From contig DASZRO010000087.1 of NCBI GenBank assembly GCA_035550055.1, positions 1-59,558 on the forward strand: 59,558 nt of DNA, given 5' to 3'. Below are positions 2,644 to 59,558 of this stretch, in pieces. The DNA comes from Mycobacteriales bacterium (GTDB lineage Bacteria; Actinomycetota; Actinomycetes; JAFAQI01). Numbering within the stretch: position 1 is the first letter of the stretch; each line of letters begins with the position of its first letter. The notes beneath the pieces were generated by a model. That model was not told the origin of the DNA and searched no databases. It was given only the letters and a program-made list of their open reading frames with translations. Made by a program: the position numbers and the translations under genes.

Positions 2644-3444
2644 GTGACCTCAGTCGACCCAGAGCGCCTGCCCGACGCCCAGCCGGTGCTCGGCGGCGCC
2701 ACCCCGGAGAAGCAACGCGGGCCGATCCGGCTGCGGCGGGGCCAGGTGCAGTCCACCACCACCGACCAGCGGCTGCTCGACACCCGCGGCCCGTCGGACT
2801 GGGTGCACACCGACCCGTGGCGGGTGCTGCGGATCCAGTCGGAGTTCGTCGAAGGATTCGGTCTGCTCGCCGAGGTGCCCCGCGCGGTGAGCGTGTTCGG
2901 CTCAGCTCGGACCAAGCCGGACTCCCCCGAGTACGCCGCAGGCGTGCAGCTCGGCGCCGCTCTCGCGCGCGCTGGCTGGGCGGTCATCACCGGTGGCGGT
3001 CCCGGCGTCATGGAGTCGGTGAACAAGGGCGCCAGTGACGCGGGCGGGGTCTCGATCGGGCTGGGCATCGAGCTGCCGTTCGAGCAGAGCCTCAACGAGT
3101 GGGTCGACGTCGGGGTCAACTTCCGCTACTTCTTCGTACGCAAGACGATGTTCGTCAAGTACGCCCAGGCGTTCGTCGTGCTGCCGGGCGGCTTCGGCAC
3201 GATGGACGAGCTGTTCGAGGCGCTGACCCTCGTGCAGACCCGCAAGGTGACCTCGTTCCCGGTCATCCTCTACGGCTCGGCTTACTGGGGCGGGCTGCTC
3301 GACTGGCTGCGCTCGACGATGCTCGCCCACGGGATGATCAACGAGGCCGACCTCGACCTGATCCAGGTCAGCGACGACGTCGACGAGATCGTCGCCATCA
3401 TCGACCAGAGCCAGGCGGGCCACCCGGACGTCCCGAAAGCCTGA
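2644..3444 (+). CDS. LOG-family protein (TIGR00730, Rossmann fold)
   Basis: A 266-residue member of the LOG/lysine-decarboxylase-like family. Characterized relatives hydrolyse nucleoside 5'-monophosphates such as cytokinin ribotides to the free base and ribose 5-phosphate. The two signature motifs are present: GGGPGVMESVNKGA (about residues 118-131) and PGGFGTMDELFEALTLVQT (about 181-199). A roughly 70-residue N-terminal extension rich in Pro/Arg (about residues 1-50) precedes the fold, as in mycobacterial Rv1205-type proteins. The gene sits directly downstream of dapE, a common actinobacterial arrangement, but no link to lysine synthesis is established. The true substrate is unknown. Confidence 0.85.
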   Translation: MTSVDPERLPDAQPVLGGATPEKQRGPIRLRRGQVQSTTTDQRLLDTRGPSDWVHTDPWRVLRIQSEFVEGFGLLAEVPRAVSVFGSARTKPDSPEYAAGVQLGAALARAGWAVITGGGPGVMESVNKGASDAGGVSIGLGIELPFEQSLNEWVDVGVNFRYFFVRKTMFVKYAQAFVVLPGGFGTMDELFEALTLVQTRKVTSFPVILYGSAYWGGLLDWLRSTMLAHGMINEADLDLIQVSDDVDEIVAIIDQSQAGHPDVPKA

Positions 3445-3449
3445 CCGGC

Positions 3450-4838
3450 GTGACCAGACGAGTCCTGGCGAGCGGGCTGCTCGTCGCCGCGCTGCTCGCC
3501 GGTGGCTCGGCAGCGACGAGCGCCGCGGGCGCCCGCGCCGGATCGCCGATGAAACACTGCGCGCTGCCGGCGGCCGGCCAGCAGGTGGGCAGCGCGACGC
3601 CGGCCCAGGAGGACCTGCGCGCCGCCGACGTCGCCGACGCGATCAACTACGCCGACACGCATCTGCGCGCGAGCGTTCAGATCTTCCGCAACAACTGCCG
3701 GGTCGCGGCGGGCCTGCTCGACTCGGTCACCGACAACGCGGCGTACGAGGTCTTCAGCTCGACGAAGAGCGTGATCTCGATCCTGACCGGCATCGCCTAC
3801 GACCACAACGAGCTGAAGCTGTCCGACCACATCGGCAAGTACCTGCCGCACGGTCCCGGCTGGGGTGACACGGCACACCGCGCCATCACCATCCGGGACC
3901 TGTTGACCGAGACCGCCGGACTTCGTGAGTCGATCCTCACCGAGTTCGCCTCGACCGGCACCGACCCCGACGTCGCCCAGGAGGCGCTGGCTCAGCCGCT
4001 GGTGCACCGACCCGGAAGGTTCTTCGAGTACACCCAACGGGTGCCGGACCTGCTGGCGTACGTCGTCCAGCGCGCGGTCGGCGAAGACCTCCAGAAATAC
4101 GCCCAGCAACACCTGTTCGGGCCGATCGGCATCCCGCTCGACAGCTACTTCTGGCTACGCGACCGGTCGGGCAACACCTACGGCTACGCGAACCTGTTCA
4201 TCCCGCCGACGCAGTTCGCGAAGCTCGGCCTGCTCATGGTCGACGACGGCGCCTGGCGCGGTCATCGCGTGTTGTCCAAGCGCTACATCCGGATGCTGAG
4301 CACGCCCACCCCGACCAACCGCTGCTACGGCTTGCTGTTCTGGGTCAACGCCGGGCGCTGGTGCACCAGCGCCAACATCCCGAGCGCGCAGACGGTTCAC
4401 CACCGGATGATCCCGGCCGCACCGCGCGACCTCTTCGCGATGGTCGGCGCCTTGCAGCAGAACAACTTCATCATCCCGTCCCTGCACATGACGGTGACCT
4501 GGACCGGCGCGTTCGGCGACACGACTCTGAACCTGCCCGGCGTCCTCAGCGCCTCGCCCGGCGGCTCCGACCTCTACGACAACTTCTTCCGGTTGCTGAT
4601 GCGCGGCGTCACCGATCAGCACATCCGAGATCCCGGCCCGTACCGCTCACCCCCGCAGGACTACGACATCGACCCCGTCAACTTCATCAGCCCCGCCGTG
4701 CTCGCGACCGACCTCGTCACGAACCCGCAGTGCAACGTGCTGGTGTGTCACGGCACGTTCCCCGCCAAGGGATGGGGTGAGGACGGCCAGGAGATCGCCC
4801 GGTACGTCGGCGGTCTGCTAGAACCGAAGCTGTCGTAG
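3450..4838 (+). CDS. Secreted beta-lactamase-family serine hydrolase
   Basis: A 462-residue exported protein of the penicillin-binding/class C beta-lactamase fold (Pfam Beta-lactamase type), a family of esterases, peptidases and D-aminopeptidases. A signal peptide is visible at residues 1-29 (MTRRVLASGLLVAALLAGG, then AxA sites). The nucleophile motif SxxK is S103-S-T-K106, in a conserved setting (FSSTKSV, then LLTETAGL further on, resembling LLTHTSGL). The second motif position is EYTQ near residue 197. Six or more cysteines (residues 37 and 83, and late pairs such as QCNVLVC) suggest disulfides outside the cell. GTG 3450 begins 5 nt after the LOG stop, implying co-transcription. I cannot tell whether it acts on peptidoglycan, on an ester or on a drug. 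Confidence 0.75.
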   Translation: MTRRVLASGLLVAALLAGGSAATSAAGARAGSPMKHCALPAAGQQVGSATPAQEDLRAADVADAINYADTHLRASVQIFRNNCRVAAGLLDSVTDNAAYEVFSSTKSVISILTGIAYDHNELKLSDHIGKYLPHGPGWGDTAHRAITIRDLLTETAGLRESILTEFASTGTDPDVAQEALAQPLVHRPGRFFEYTQRVPDLLAYVVQRAVGEDLQKYAQQHLFGPIGIPLDSYFWLRDRSGNTYGYANLFIPPTQFAKLGLLMVDDGAWRGHRVLSKRYIRMLSTPTPTNRCYGLLFWVNAGRWCTSANIPSAQTVHHRMIPAAPRDLFAMVGALQQNNFIIPSLHMTVTWTGAFGDTTLNLPGVLSASPGGSDLYDNFFRLLMRGVTDQHIRDPGPYRSPPQDYDIDPVNFISPAVLATDLVTNPQCNVLVCHGTFPAKGWGEDGQEIARYVGGLLEPKLS

Positions 4839-9020: not shown

Positions 9021-10331
9021 TCACGCGTTGAGGTCGACCAGCAGCGACTCGTAGCCGCGCAGCGCCTGAAGGTCGCGCCGGCGACCTGAGCCGGGCACGA
9101 CCTGCAGATCCGGGAATCGTTCGAAGAGCAGTCGCAGACCGACCCGGCCTTCCATGCGGGCCAGGTTCGCGCCGAGGCAGTAGTGCACGCCGGCGCTGAG
9201 CGCGAGATGGTCGCGCGCGTTCGGCCGCTCGAGGTCGAACTCCGCCGGGTTGTCGAAGACGGCCGGGTCGCGGTTCGCGCCGCCCAGGAAGCACAACAAG
9301 GTCGTGCCGCGCGAGATCGGATACCCGTCGACCTCGGTGTCGATGATCGCGACCCGGCCGGTGATCTGCACCGGGCTCTCCAGCCGCAGCAGCTCGTCGG
9401 GCACCTGCTCCCACAGCGCCGGGTCGGCCGCGAGCCGCTGACGTGACTTCGCCGACGCGGCCAGGACCGCGACCCCGCTGCCGAGCAGGTTCACCGTCGT
9501 CTCGAAGCCCGCGCCGAGCAGCAGCAGCGCCGTCGCACGAAGCTCCAGGTCGGTGAGCCGGTCCTCGGGTTCGGCATTGACGAGCTGGCTGAGGATGTCC
9601 TCGCCAGGCTTGCGCCGCAGGTTCTCGAAGTGCTGGTTGAACCACCCGTTCATTGCCCGCAGTGCACGGTTGATCGCGGTGTAGTCGCGGTGCGTGACGC
9701 CGAAGTCGAGGACCGGCGCGGCAGCATGACCCCACGCCAGGAACTGGTCGCGCATGTCGGCGGGTACGCCGAGGATCTCGGCGATCACCGCGACCGGCAG
9801 CAGGTTGGCGTAGTCCGCGACGACGTCGACGCGGTCACGTCCCTGCAGCCCGTCGAGCAGCTCGACCGCGCGCTCCTCGACCCGGTCGGCGACCTGCTGC
9901 AGCGCACGCGGGGTGAACGGTTTCGACACCATCCGGCGGTAGCGGGTGTGAGTGGGCGGGTCGACCGCCAGCAACGACGGCGCGTCGATGACGCTGGCCA
10001 GCTCCGGGTCGGCCGCGCTGAACAGCCACTGGACGAGCCTCGGCGTACCACTCGCGTCGTTGAGCGCGACGCTGAACGCGTTGCTGTCCCGCAGCGCACC
10101 CGACACGATGCCGTAGTCAGCGGTCGCGTTGACCAGTGGCGCCTTGATCACCCGGCCACCGCGGCGGATCTCGTCGAGCAGCGGATACGGATCCTCGCGC
10201 GCCCCGGGCTCGAACAGCAGCCTGCTGACCGGGTCGCCGCGACGCGCCTGGATCTTGAGCACGGTCCGAGCGAGCCGGTGCAGCGCGAACCACCGCACCT
10301 GCTCCCGCGCCGCCACACCCACCCGGCTCAC
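9021..10331 (-). CDS. Cytochrome P450
   Basis: A 436-residue soluble class I-type P450 monooxygenase, which needs a ferredoxin and reductase encoded elsewhere. The I-helix oxygen-activation motif is LLLGAGFETTVN, the ExxR pair of the K-helix lies in ELLR, and the heme loop LSAGVHYCLGANLAR carries the thiolate ligand C385. One change from the usual loop is a Leu-Ser where most P450s have a Phe-Gly. GTG 10331 is preceded by TAGGCT at 6 nt, so the mRNA is probably leaderless. A 76-bp hairpin lies directly upstream. The convergent acyl-CoA synthetase pair suggests lipid or aromatic-acid metabolism, which is only an inference. Confidence 0.93.
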   Translation of the reverse strand: MSRVGVAAREQVRWFALHRLARTVLKIQARRGDPVSRLLFEPGAREDPYPLLDEIRRGGRVIKAPLVNATADYGIVSGALRDSNAFSVALNDASGTPRLVQWLFSAADPELASVIDAPSLLAVDPPTHTRYRRMVSKPFTPRALQQVADRVEERAVELLDGLQGRDRVDVVADYANLLPVAVIAEILGVPADMRDQFLAWGHAAAPVLDFGVTHRDYTAINRALRAMNGWFNQHFENLRRKPGEDILSQLVNAEPEDRLTDLELRATALLLLGAGFETTVNLLGSGVAVLAASAKSRQRLAADPALWEQVPDELLRLESPVQITGRVAIIDTEVDGYPISRGTTLLCFLGGANRDPAVFDNPAEFDLERPNARDHLALSAGVHYCLGANLARMEGRVGLRLLFERFPDLQVVPGSGRRRDLQALRGYESLLVDLNA

Positions 10332-10347: not shown

Positions 10348-10423
10348 CCCCTGCGTCGAGCCCAACGTTGTTGGTCTTTCACTACCCGTTGAAAGACCAA
10401 AAAGGTTGGGCTCGGCGCAGGGG
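10348..10423. repeat. Long hairpin repeat, family A, copy 1
   Basis: Two 34-bp arms (10348-10381 and 10390-10423) pair with three mismatches around an 8-nt loop. The inner arm contains GAGCCCAACGTTGTTGG followed by TCTTTCA, shared with copy 2 at 58702-58761. It lies in the divergent gap between the P450 and DinB-like genes. Confidence 0.85.
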
Positions 10424-10442: not shown

Positions 10443-10967
10443 GTGTCGATAGCTCCGGATGGCAAGGACTGGACCTGGGTGCTCCGCGAGCGGTGCCCGG
10501 AGTGCGGCTTCGAGTCGTGGGCCTTCCCGCGCGAGGAGATCGCGGCCATGGTCCGGGCGAACGCCGCGCGATGGCGCGACGTACTCGCCCGTCCCGGCGT
10601 ACGTGCCCGCCCCGACCCCTCGACCTGGTCACCGCTCGAGTACGCCTGCCACGTCCGCGACGTCTATCGCAAGTACGACGAGCGCGTGCACCTCATGCTC
10701 GACAGCGACGATCCGCTGTTCGCGAACTGGGACCAGGACGTCACGGCGATCGAGGACCGCTACGACGAGCAGGACCCCGCCGCCGTCGCGGCAGCCCTGA
10801 CCGAGGCGGGCGACGCGGTGGCGAGCACTTTCGACGGCGTCGTGGGCGGCGACTGGGATCGCCCGGGCCGACGCAGCGACGGGGCGAGCTTCACCGTCGA
10901 GTCGCTGGCCCGCTACTTCGCCCACGACTGGGTTCATCACATCTGGGACGTCAACCGCGCCACGTGA
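10443..10967 (+). CDS. DinB-family metal-binding protein
   Basis: A 174-residue protein of the DinB/mycothiol-S-transferase four-helix fold. An N-terminal segment with CPECGFE (about residues 17-23) precedes helices with likely metal-ligand histidines in ACHVRDVYRKY (about residue 70) and in the C-terminal FAHDWVHHIWDV. Close relatives are common in actinomycetes and are thought to be thiol-dependent transferases or detoxification enzymes, but this subgroup is uncharacterized. I chose GTG 10443 because the family begins close to the SIAPDGKDWTW stretch; GTG 10422 is in frame but lies inside the hairpin repeat. Confidence 0.7.
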   Translation: MSIAPDGKDWTWVLRERCPECGFESWAFPREEIAAMVRANAARWRDVLARPGVRARPDPSTWSPLEYACHVRDVYRKYDERVHLMLDSDDPLFANWDQDVTAIEDRYDEQDPAAVAAALTEAGDAVASTFDGVVGGDWDRPGRRSDGASFTVESLARYFAHDWVHHIWDVNRAT

Positions 10968-14882: not shown

Positions 14883-14935
14883 AAGAGCGGATGTGCCATG
14901 CGCCCGCTATGGGCTCGGATGGCACATCCGCTCTT
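14883..14935. repeat. Hairpin repeat, family B, locus 1
   Basis: Two perfect 17-bp arms (14883-14899 and 14919-14935), AAGAGCGGATGTGCCAT and its complement, separated by 19 nt. The right-hand copy contains the full family core GGATGGCACATCCGCTC. It lies between two genes read on the minus strand (the small basic protein and the phosphodiesterase). Confidence 0.85.
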
Positions 14936-35146: not shown

Positions 35147-35374
35147 ATGGAGGTTCGCATCGGCATCAAGGGCGCCCCGCGCGAGATCTCGTACGAGAGC
35201 GCGCAGACCGCCGACGAAATCCAGCAGCTGGTCGAGAAGGCCATGCGCAGCGAGGACCCTGCGTTGACCCTCGTCGACGAGAAGGGCCGGCGCGTGATCG
35301 TCGCCATCGACAAGCTGGCCTACGTCGAGATCGCCGAAGGCGATCCGCGCCGCGTCGGCTTCGGCGCCCTCTAA
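35147..35374 (+). CDS. DUF3107 protein (TB9.4-like)
   Basis: A 75-residue protein highly conserved in actinomycetes (mycobacterial TB9.4/Rv3208A). It begins MEVRIGIKGAPREISYESAQ and ends DKLAYVEIAEGDPRRVGFGA, with a central DEKGRRVIVAIDKLAY strand. The pattern suggests a small beta-alpha-beta fold; no function is known. ATG 35147 has TAGCCT 7 nt upstream, so it is probably leaderless. The stop TAA is directly followed by an array of hairpins (family C) that fills the gap to the convergent ferritin-like gene. Confidence 0.92.
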   Translation: MEVRIGIKGAPREISYESAQTADEIQQLVEKAMRSEDPALTLVDEKGRRVIVAIDKLAYVEIAEGDPRRVGFGAL

Positions 35375-35489
35375 CCAGCAACGCTCCGTTGCTGGGCCAT
35401 TCCCCCCAGTAACGCTCCATTGCTGGGCCATTCCCCCAGCGACGCTGCGTTGCTGGGGTGGTAAGCCGGGTGACGCTGCGTTGCTGGGG
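35375..35489. repeat. Hairpin array, family C, locus 1
   Basis: Four hairpins with a period of about 30 bp: CCAGCAACG - GTTGCTGG at 35375-35396, then variants at 35406-35427, 35436-35457 and about 35467-35489. Each has 8-bp arms with a GCTCC or GCTGC loop. The array fills the 115 bp between the stop codons of two convergent genes almost exactly. Confidence 0.9.
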
Positions 35490-45246: not shown

Positions 45247-45751
45247 GAACCGCCGCCAGTCGCGGCTCGACCAGCCGCAGGACACCCGCCGCAGCATCGC
45301 GCTGCCCCGCTACAACGCCGACTCGATGGGCCGGATCTCCGAGCGGGTAGCGCGCTTCCTCGGCACCTGGCGGTTCATCGGCTACATGTCGCTGTTCATC
45401 GGCGTCTGGATCATCTACAACGTCGTCGTACCGACCAGCTGGCGCTTCGACCAGTACAGCAACAAGTTCACCCTCCTCACGCTGCTCCTCTCGCTACAGG
45501 CGTCGTACGCCGCGCCGCTGATCCTGCTTGCGCAGAACCGGCAGGCCGACCGCGACCGGGTGCAGTACGAGGCGGACCGGGCGTTGTCGGAGCGGGCGGT
45601 CAACGACACCGAGTACCTGACCCGGGAGATCGCGGCGATCCGGCTCTCACTCGGCGAGGTCGCGACCCGTGACTACATCCGCGGCGAGCTACAGCGCCTG
45701 CTCGACGAGCTCGCCCCCGACCGCCCCGACCCCGAAGCGGATGGCACATAG
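45236..45751 (+). CDS. DUF1003 membrane protein
   Basis: A 171-residue protein with two transmembrane helices (about 47-66, IGYMSLFIGVWIIYNVVV, and 78-99, LLTLLLSLQASYAAPLILLAQ) and a soluble C-terminal helix region. The DUF1003 signature NRQADRDR follows the second helix. It is linked in actinomycetes with MgtE-N/CBS proteins and may be part of a metal-uptake or stress system, but no function is established. GTG 45236 overlaps the upstream gene by 11 bp. The last residues ADGT and the stop are encoded by a family B repeat. Confidence 0.88.
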   Translation: MARENRRQSRLDQPQDTRRSIALPRYNADSMGRISERVARFLGTWRFIGYMSLFIGVWIIYNVVVPTSWRFDQYSNKFTLLTLLLSLQASYAAPLILLAQNRQADRDRVQYEADRALSERAVNDTEYLTREIAAIRLSLGEVATRDYIRGELQRLLDELAPDRPDPEADGT

Positions 45752-45815
45752 CTACCGCTCTGGCTGAGCGGATGGCACATGCGGATTGCTGTAGGCGTAG
45801 CGAGGTGCCATCCGC
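45735..45815. repeat. Hairpin repeat, family B, locus 4 (three cores)
   Basis: Cores at 45735-45749 (AAGCGGATGGCACAT), 45766-45780 (GAGCGGATGGCACAT) and, inverted, 45802-45815 (GAGGTGCCATCCGC). The first covers the end of the DUF1003 gene. The block fills the tandem gap to mrp and can fold into alternative hairpins. Confidence 0.8.
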
Positions 45816-48684: not shown

Positions 48685-49377
48685 GTGCCCGAACGCAGCG
48701 AGGCCGAGATCGCGCTGGACAACTGGCGTCACGCGGAGGCCTGGCTCGAAGAGGACGACCCGATCGCGGCGGCCCGCCCGAAAGGCAAAGGGCTCGGCGC
48801 CGTACCGATCGGTGCCGGCGGCGGGGCGATGCTGCGCTTCCTGGCCGCCAGCGTCAACGCCCGGGCCATCGTGGAGGTCGGCACCGGTGCAGGCGTGTCC
48901 GGAACGTGGTTGCTGCGCGGCATGGCGCCCGACGGCCTGCTCACCTCGATCGACGCCGAAGCCGAGCACCAGCGCGTCGCGAAGCAGACCTTCCTCGCGG
49001 CCGGCTTCCCGCTGTCACGGTTTCGGCTGATCGCCGGCAACGCCCTCGAGGTGCTGCCCAGGCTCTCCGACGGCGCCTACGACATGTTCTTCGGTGACGC
49101 CGCCAAGGAGGAGTACTCCGCCTATCTCGACGAGGCGATCCGGTTGCTTCGCCCCGGCGGCATCCTGGCTTTCGACAACGCGCTCTGGCACGGGCACGTC
49201 GCCGACGAGAGCAACCGCGACGCCGGAACCGTTGCGGTGCGTGAGCTGCTACGGCGGGTCCGCGACGACGAGCGGCTGGTCCCGGTGCTCGTCCCGAGCG
49301 GCGACGGCCTGCTGATCGCCCAGGTGCGCCCAACGGACCACCCCGCCCCGCCAGACCCAGACCAGCCCACCCAGTAA
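48685..49377 (+). CDS. O-methyltransferase, SAM-dependent
   Basis: A 230-residue class I methyltransferase of the catechol-O-methyltransferase-like family (Rv1220c type). The SAM motif is IVEVGTGAGVSGTWLL (about 61-76), with SIDAEAEHQ (acidic residue binding ribose) and DMFFGDAAKEEY (metal-ligand Asp) following, then FDNALWHGHVAD. It may act on a catechol or phenolic compound; the substrate is unknown. GTG 48685 has TACGCT 6 nt upstream. The last codons and stop (PTQ*) overlap the first hairpin of a family C array. It is divergent from htrA. Confidence 0.88.
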   Translation: MPERSEAEIALDNWRHAEAWLEEDDPIAAARPKGKGLGAVPIGAGGGAMLRFLAASVNARAIVEVGTGAGVSGTWLLRGMAPDGLLTSIDAEAEHQRVAKQTFLAAGFPLSRFRLIAGNALEVLPRLSDGAYDMFFGDAAKEEYSAYLDEAIRLLRPGGILAFDNALWHGHVADESNRDAGTVAVRELLRRVRDDERLVPVLVPSGDGLLIAQVRPTDHPAPPDPDQPTQ

Positions 49378-49486
49378 CGCTCCGTTACCTGGCCTTTCCG
49401 CCCAGCAACGCTGCGTTGCTGGGGGGATTGGCCCAGCAAAGGAGCGTTGGTGGGGGGTAGGCCCAGCAAAGGAGCGTTGCTGGGGA
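49370..49486. repeat. Hairpin array, family C, locus 2
   Basis: Four units of about 30 bp: CCCAGTAACG - CGTTACCTGG at 49370-49392, CCCAGCAACG - CGTTGCTGGGG at 49401-49424, and variants CCCAGCAAAGGAGCGTTG at 49432-49453 and 49461-49485. It begins inside the methyltransferase stop and fills the convergent gap towards glgC. Confidence 0.9.
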
Positions 49487-58270: not shown

Positions 58271-58684
58271 ATGCCCAGCCGCCGTACTTCGCGTGCCGCG
58301 AGCGTGACCGCAGGCCTCTGCCTGGTCGCGGGCGCGGCGGCGTGCTCGGGATCCTCGAGCCCGTCGTCGAACCCGACGACGTTCGCCTCGCCGACCTCAC
58401 CGCCCCCGACCAGCCTGCACGGGCACAAGGCGGGTGGGCCGAACGGGGTCATCACCGCGCCCGCGTCGAACCCGCCGAGCAGCGGCGTACCGGGCGGTTC
58501 GGAGACGTTCCCCCACGTCGACACCCAGACCGATCGGCGCATCCTCGACCACGTGCTGGCGATGCCGGGCGTGGCGCATGCGGCGTACTACCCGCAGTTC
58601 AAGCAGTTCCAGGTGTATTACACGCCGAGTGCCACGAGCGCAGACCGCCAAGCGGTCTACGACTACGTGACCAGCCACAGCTAA
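58271..58684 (+). CDS. Small lipoprotein
   Basis: A 137-residue exported protein. The signal has basic RRTSR, then a hydrophobic stretch ending LVAGAAACSG, with the lipobox cysteine at about residue 24. A Ser/Pro/Thr-rich linker follows (about 25-75), then a C-terminal domain of about 60 residues (DTQTDRRILDHVLAMPGVAH, QFKQFQVYYTPSATSADRQA) that may be a small alpha/beta unit. No function is evident. ATG 58271 has GGAGGAG 6 nt upstream. A perfect 28-bp-arm hairpin follows the stop. Confidence 0.75.
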   Translation: MPSRRTSRAASVTAGLCLVAGAAACSGSSSPSSNPTTFASPTSPPPTSLHGHKAGGPNGVITAPASNPPSSGVPGGSETFPHVDTQTDRRILDHVLAMPGVAHAAYYPQFKQFQVYYTPSATSADRQAVYDYVTSHS

Positions 58685-58701
58685 CCCACCCCACCTCCTC
58701 C

Positions 58702-58761
58702 TCGAGCCCAACGTTGTTGGTCTTTCAGGGCTGCCTGAAAGACCAACAACGTTGGGCTCGA
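58702..58761. repeat. Long hairpin repeat, family A, copy 2
   Basis: Two perfect 28-bp arms (58702-58729, 58734-58761) around a 4-nt loop. The arm contains GAGCCCAACGTTGTTGG and TCTTTCA identical to copy 1, about 48 kb away. It lies in the convergent gap between the lipoprotein gene and the truncated Ig-like gene. Confidence 0.9.
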
Positions 58762-58783
58762 CGTGTGATCTGGGGGTGAAACG

Positions 58784-58819
58784 CCGATGGGGGCGACCCT
58801 TGCGGGCCGCCCCCATCGG
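58784..58819 (-). terminator. Terminator hairpin of the right-edge Ig-like gene
   Basis: Perfect 12-bp arms CCGATGGGGGCG and CGCCCCCATCGG around a 12-nt loop, 20 bp after the stop. It is next to the family A hairpin. Confidence 0.6.
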
Positions 58820-58838
58820 GGTGTTCAGGTGGTGCTTG

Positions 58839-59558
58839 TTACTTGATGCGGTGTCCCACAGCCTGCGAGAACTCCGAGCGGTACTGCGTACCAAGGTTGA
58901 TCACCTTGGCCGCGACCCGCCAGGTCGCTCCCGAGCGCAGACCCGAGAAGGACAGCGAGGCGTTGCCGCGCGGGCCCGTGTGGGTCTGGCCAACCAGGTG
59001 CTTGATGCCGTTACGCAGGCGGTAGATGTTCACCGTGCGAGTGGCACCGAGCGACGGGCTGGTGTGGACGATCACCGTCAGGTGGTGCTTGTGGAACGAC
59101 GTCAGGCTGACCGTCGGGCGCTCCACAGTGGTGTGCTGAGCCGAACCGGTGAAGGTGATGGCCTCCTTGCCGGACGCCAGCTGCGTGCCACCAGGACCGG
59201 TCACCACCATCGAGACGGTGGAGACACCCGGGGAGTTGCAGCTGAACGTGTAGCCAGCGATACCTGAGGTGTTCGTGTTGAGGGTGGCAGGTGCACCACC
59301 GTTACCGGTGATCGCCGCCGGCACACAGCTGGCCTCGTTCGACCCGCTGCGGACCACGGAGATCACACCCACGCCACCGTTGGTGCCGGACGTCGTACCA
59401 GTCGGAGCACCCACGATCGGGTTCTGGAACTGGTCGACCAGCTTGGCCGTCACCGTGACCGCAGTCGAGGTGGCGACCTTGTTGCCCGGCGTCACCGTGA
59501 ACGTCACAACCGGCTGCGCGAGCTGGTTGTAGAAGTTCAGGGTCAGCGTGTCGCTGGC
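58839..59558 (-). CDS. Ig-like repeat protein with shared C-terminal module (5' end outside)
   Basis: The frame is open to the right edge, so only the last 239 residues are seen. The first visible part is ASDTLTLNFYNQLAQPVV, then an Ig-like unit (about 20-140) with Cys in EASCVPAA and TFSCNSPG and a NTSGIAGY turn. The final 85 residues (about 155-239) match the C-terminus of the large Ig-like protein: PSL, YRLRNGIKH (against YQLRRGVRH), a G, a TG..GN step, a late G..R..A+V and a F....G end. A hairpin terminator follows. It is probably a third large exported protein of the same cluster; the full length is not known. Confidence 0.75.
   Translation of the reverse strand, partial: ASDTLTLNFYNQLAQPVVTFTVTPGNKVATSTAVTVTAKLVDQFQNPIVGAPTGTTSGTNGGVGVISVVRSGSNEASCVPAAITGNGGAPATLNTNTSGIAGYTFSCNSPGVSTVSMVVTGPGGTQLASGKEAITFTGSAQHTTVERPTVSLTSFHKHHLTVIVHTSPSLGATRTVNIYRLRNGIKHLVGQTHTGPRGNASLSFSGLRSGATWRVAAKVINLGTQYRSEFSQAVGHRIK

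Follow-up and report, generated by a model that had tools for sequence, protein, structure and literature searches.

A dispersed family of palindromic hairpins in a Mycobacteriales genome is associated with a gene for an AbiEi-like, DUF559/Vsr-like nuclease

Two large hairpins lie in a 59,558-nt stretch of DNA from a Mycobacteriales bacterium (the window). We find that they belong to a family of palindromes, here called family A, and that DUF559 nuclease genes are associated with palindrome families. The hairpins are probably dispersed, non-autonomous REP- or MITE-like palindromes, with an AbiEi-DUF559/Vsr-like nuclease as the enzyme of the family and its putative mobiliser. Family hairpins bracket the nuclease gene here and in relatives, an arrangement suggestive of mobile DNA comparable to REP/RAYT but with an unrelated enzyme; we infer that the hairpins are acted on and spread by the nuclease.

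Both hairpins had been described in an earlier note, and their coordinates, arm lengths and shared arm sequence were borne out. Copy 1 has 34-nt arms (10348–10381 and 10390–10423) with 3 mismatches (91% complementary) around an 8-nt loop, and copy 2 has 28-nt arms (58702–58729 and 58734–58761) that are 100% complementary around a 4-nt loop. The sequence common to the two is CGAGCCCAACGTTGTTGGTCTTTCA. RNA folding gave −64.5 kcal/mol for copy 1 and −56.7 kcal/mol for copy 2, corresponding to z values of −10 and −12 relative to dinucleotide shuffles, none of which (0/200) equalled them. Scored in its own genome, the 64-bp family A core of copy 1 spans 10354–10417 (85.2 bits, E 9e-18) and copy 2 spans 58700–58763 (87.7 bits, E 2e-18), neither being assigned to a strand. 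The copy 1 core, CGTCGAGCCC...GGGCTCGGCG, has its arms at 10354–10381 and 10390–10417, and the stem is lengthened by the chance flanks CCCCTG/CAGGGG (10348–10353/10418–10423).

Copy 1 had been placed over the −35 region of a cytochrome P450 gene. More precisely, it occupies almost the whole divergent gap between the start of that gene (9021–10331, minus strand; PF00067, 4e-29), 22 bp away, and the inferred start, at about 10443, of a DinB_2 family gene (10443–10967, plus strand; PF12867, 9e-8). Copy 2 does lie in a convergent gap. It starts about 15 bp past the stop codon, at 58684, of a small plus-strand gene for a Ser/Pro-rich, lipoprotein-like product (58271–58684; assigned from sequence, the C-terminal part having no Pfam match), and the convergent minus-strand gene (58839–59558), which is cut by the window end, has no Pfam match. 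Another GC-rich hairpin (58781–58822) is found in the same gap; it follows copy 2 by about 17 bp, on the side where the minus-strand gene ends. An Rfam search of the window gave no matches.

The window's genome (G000) is a 3.54-Mb draft in 122 contigs, 98.75% complete. A pattern search for the shared 24-mer with up to 3 mismatches gave 46 matches in this genome and 0 for the reversed control. A covariance model detected 31 clear and complete hairpins and one weak match; in addition there are three half copies where a contig terminates within a perfect family A hairpin (L068, start of C36; L069, end of C62; L070, end of C115). As contigs end within hairpins, the assembly is interrupted at the palindromes and slightly too few copies are counted; the start of C36 and the end of C62 have the same loop and are probably one copy that split the assembly. 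A search with the N4 pattern described below found 55 arms, all of which belong to hairpins or to the three contig-end halves, so solo arms are absent. An exact-pattern search of the named GTDB contigs gave no matches. The total of about 33 copies, together with differences in presence and absence between related genomes in sister families, runs counter to the possibility, foreseen in the earlier note, that just two copies exist and that their presence does not vary. Of the three roles proposed there, the non-autonomous element is the one favoured by the evidence.

The 64-bp core consists of CGYCGAGCCCAAC-N4-TTGGTCTTTCA, a loop of 6–8 nt and then the inverse. In each arm, 13 bp at the outer end and 11 bp at the inner end are almost invariant, while the N4 box in the middle frequently fails to pair and changes on one side without regard to the other; at the third pair, T.G and C.A combinations are found. 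The ends are near-invariant CG.CGAGCCC, with outer ends reading CGYC/GRCG. No covariation above that of shuffles was detected in family A. Given this and the independent variation of the arms, it is the sequence that is conserved, not the pairing, the pattern one would predict for arms recognised by a protein and not for an RNA stem. A structured RNA was rejected by the same test, as compensatory base changes did not exceed those in shuffles.

These data also bear on the proposal that the hairpins are bidirectional transcription terminators whose sequence is common by descent or conversion. The stems are very stable, and many copies are close to the 3′ end of a gene or sit in a convergent gap, as do 11 of the 35 in the window's genome and 12 of 23 hairpins in the second family at C30 described below. 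However, the T-tract is absent at both copy 1 and copy 2, a number of copies, with copy 1 among them, occupy divergent gaps, covariation is lacking, mid-stem breaks are independent between copies, and turnover is high with poor conservation of position. Termination would also leave the tie to one nuclease family unexplained. This role, named in the earlier note, is thus unsupported and we consider it very unlikely. Complementarity of the flanks, as in insertion into terminator hairpins, was hinted at in a few copies of the window's genome (10348, C92, C83; p=0.04 on one of two measures, overall not significant) and was not seen in sister genomes.

A comparison between genomes of the genes adjoining hairpins singled out one gene. 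In the window's genome it adjoins a family A hairpin on C95, and its orthologues in G001 and G003 have family hairpins on both sides; as it is on another contig, it was outside the sight of the earlier note. The product of 290 aa matches DUF559 (PF04480, 32.5 bits against a cut-off of 20.6) and AbiEi (PADLOC AbiEi models, 4e-7 to 8e-9). In an AlphaFold model (pLDDT 90.7), residues 3–186 form an AbiEi-like fold, matching AbiEi 6y8q (Z 11.3), and residues 189–290 resemble Vsr-like nucleases, the top-ranking matches including the homing endonuclease I-Bth0305I (3r3p, Z 11.5) and Vsr (1cw0, Z 10.3), besides DUF559 3hrl (Z 10.9). E192, D229, E240, D242 and H246 are invariant and the nuclease motif is intact in 13/13 aligned homologues; on this basis, residues 189–290 are a predicted PD-(D/E)XK nuclease of the DUF559/Vsr-like type. 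A profile search of the named contigs for the nuclease yielded 13 loci, nearly all in Frankiaceae/Frankiales MAGs, and hence no close cultured relative.

Matching palindromes were present on both sides of 10/10 close homologues that were intact and had both flanks sequenced, usually 14–80 bp from the gene. The two homologues without a palindrome pair are truncated at the N-terminus (C31) or split in frame (G005). In a class-wide sample, the flanks of 9 of 27 DUF559 genes matched at z>5 and those of a further two at z>4, compared with 0/92 and 1/92, respectively, of non-DUF559 control genes; nine control-list entries at z>5 were DUF559 genes themselves and were excluded from the 92. Fisher's test against the controls gave 5e-14 for the close homologues (10/10) and 5e-7 for the class-wide sample (9/27), about two thirds of which showed no bracketing in the flank test. 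On C5 of the window's genome (L064), two family A hairpins (3011–3074 and 3930–3993) stand 0.9 kb apart with no DUF559 gene between them, a possible remnant of a nuclease unit.

Two predictions from the association were borne out. The DUF559 paralogue at C30 of the window's genome has dispersed palindromes like those in its flanks, with 95 arm matches (49 on the plus and 46 on the minus strand; control 1/0) and about 48 hairpins of 79–81 bp. The DUF559 gene of G101, an unrelated complete genome from another family, is accompanied by about 13 dispersed hairpins (24 arm matches, control 0/0), whose arms carry a fixed mismatch, GGGAACAC/GGGAGGAC. In this genome two hairpins (L220/L235, at 1314375 and 1315480), 1.1 kb apart, also flank another gene, whose product has no detected similarity to the DUF559 protein of that genome. 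Long palindromes of other kinds adjoin DUF559 genes that stand alone, on plasmids of alphaproteobacteria and cyanobacteria and in Escherichia coli (ycjD). Strict short hairpins at these loci occur at 2.4 per kb near the gene vs 0.1 per kb elsewhere, with only 5 of the 9 loci passing the strict criterion. Beside the alphaproteobacterial DUF559 genes, CGTC-type REP motifs were not found and other palindromes were present. In E. coli KE47 (L239, ~1310–1580), three CCCTCACCCTAACCCTCTCCC-type repeats follow a DUF559 gene that is probably ycjD. On plasmids of Sphingomonas parapaucimobilis (L209 and L211), DUF559 genes beside GC-rich palindromes look as if inserted into conserved operons, those of sufB-sufC and of the transhydrogenase subunits.

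Four genomes of the same family (G001, G003, G007, G011) carry diverged hairpins of the same layout with arm sequences particular to each, and sister families have GAC/GTC in place of the AAC/GTT of family A. G007 and G011 are ~86% identical and the DUF559 unit is syntenic between them, flanks included. When eight G007 hairpin sites were mapped in G011, the element was absent from five and of the same type at one; the remaining two (L102, L103) have G011 hairpins with different inner arms. Thus, whole elements are commonly gained or lost. The window's genome has one hairpin site in common with the ~20 of G001 (L054/L072), again with different inner arms, and two G101 hairpin sites have no hairpin in relatives. 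Where a site is shared, the inner arms still differ by genome, which suggests that copies convert one another. The turnover shows that elements appear and disappear but does not by itself give the mechanism, and an element missing from an orthologous site may have been lost there or never inserted. Target-site duplications were not seen at the sites compared, where comparators differ by 14% or more, and no clean empty/filled junction or transposition event was found in the genomes compared. In G007 (L092), hairpins at 1414–1476 and 3011–3073 enclose 1.5 kb without DUF559 homology, and the syntenic G011 site (L050) has one hairpin.

Conversion could instead be the main process. The nuclease may be a homing parasite that cuts pre-existing palindromes, with ectopic repair homogenising the copies and spreading the gene from palindrome to palindrome, and with new sites being rare and accidental. 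The closeness of the nuclease domain to the homing endonuclease I-Bth0305I and to Vsr, and the genome-specific inner arms at L102, L103 and L054/L072, are in accordance with this, but the five G007 sites without any palindrome in G011 are not, and we regard it as unlikely, if the strongest of the alternatives. Less probable still is that the hairpins are regulatory or chromosome-organising sites of the host, serving repression, DNA structure or self-marking for defence, where an AbiEi-like DNA-binding factor would serve the cell and nuclease activity would be secondary. AbiEi antitoxins are described as binding inverted repeats in one account (PMC7319586), the arm sequence is kept without covariation, and the orthologous unit stays put in G007 and G011. 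However, hairpin positions are mostly unshared between related genomes, the nuclease motif has been kept intact throughout the aligned homologues, and autoregulation would not need palindromes on both sides of the gene. A protein-binding site, the third role proposed in the earlier note, is plausible as one component of the mechanism, through the AbiEi-like DNA-binding domain.

Least probable of all is that the hairpins are integron attC sites or REP/RAYT elements proper. The attC core has the consensus RYYYAAC/GTTRRRY, which the GCCCAAC/GTTGGGC of family A fits, but the copies are dispersed with no cassette arrays, the sister families differ at the AAC/GTT, and integron integrase (TIGR02249) matches were below the cut-off only, as in control genomes. 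The genomic logic is the same as that of REPtrons (PMC3733652), but Y1_Tnp (PF01797) genes number 0 in this nearly complete genome, whereas control genomes matched as expected. Shared with REP/REPIN-RAYT systems are the dispersed intergenic palindromes in many copies, mostly at gene 3′ ends, the species-specific sequence families, the single dedicated enzyme gene between copies, and the presence in one genome of several families that each have an enzyme to themselves. The enzyme here is an AbiEi-like, DUF559/Vsr-like PD-(D/E)XK nuclease rather than an HUH/Y1 transposase (TnpA-REP), the hairpins are 60–80 bp with arms of 20–28 bp, the genome is without RAYT, and the GTAG tag is absent from family A.

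CGTC-tagged REPs, which lack a dedicated transposase (Di Nocera 2013, PMC3733652), resemble family A in their similar location preferences and in its CGYC/GRCG outer ends. In family A, however, the CGYC is paired with GRCG inside the stem at both ends, where CGTC REPs have their tag unpaired at one end, the stem has 28 pairs vs 8–9 bp, and the CCA tail is absent; Actinobacteria are also outside the five phyla given for CGTC REPs (PMC3733652). These likenesses do not directly show a link between the two. The Vsr/EDxHD homing endonucleases and the DUF559 proteins NGO0050 and Caulobacter VsrA have the same nuclease fold (Z 10–11.5) and acidic/His motif. Vsr, I-Bth0305I, NGO0050 and VsrA have been described in mismatch repair or homing, VsrA, the single DUF559 protein for which a study turned up, being interpreted as a mismatch-repair nuclease in 2026 (PMC12907096), whereas the present protein has an AbiEi-like fusion and bracketing palindromes. 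AbiEi antitoxins share the fold of residues 3–186, but are stand-alone and have no C-terminal nuclease domain. MITEs are likewise short, non-coding and built with long inverted arms, and they too have a related autonomous unit; here no known transposase family is involved, and target-site duplication was undetected against comparators differing by 14% or more.

In the mechanism we propose, the autonomous unit would be the nuclease gene between two family hairpins, about 1.1 kb in all. The AbiEi-like part would recognise the genome-specific arm sequence, and the Vsr-like nuclease would nick or cut the palindrome, perhaps while extruded as a hairpin or cruciform, in which the mismatches (the outer-stem T.G and the 4-nt mid-stem box) would resemble a Vsr substrate. 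Repair or re-insertion could then place copies of the element at new sites between genes or convert existing copies to the current type.

The window contains other palindromes. Clustered 23-bp palindromes, CCCAGCAACGCTNCGTTGCTGGG, with ~30-bp spacing lie at 35374–35457 and 49367–49484 and had no match to any DUF559 flank found in this analysis. A third family at 14883–14935 and 45737–45815 has GCGGATGGCACAT-like arms in common.

Few kinds of repeat are as common in bacterial genomes as palindromic ones, and the families without GTAG are largely without a known enzyme. A conserved nuclease gene between the same palindromes is a candidate enzyme for each such family and makes the question testable. 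A search of the open-access literature found no report linking DUF559 to palindromic repeats. The chances seem evenly balanced that DUF559/Vsr-like nucleases are the dedicated mobilisers of a large unassigned share of bacterial palindromic repeats, a candidate superfamily without known transposase that would range from actinobacterial 60–80-bp hairpins to proteobacterial and cyanobacterial palindromes of the CCCTCACCC/CCCTCTCCCC type. If true, the widespread DUF559 domain, whose function is unknown, would gain a candidate role, and REP/REPIN-like systems would have originated on more than one occasion, from enzymes that are not related.
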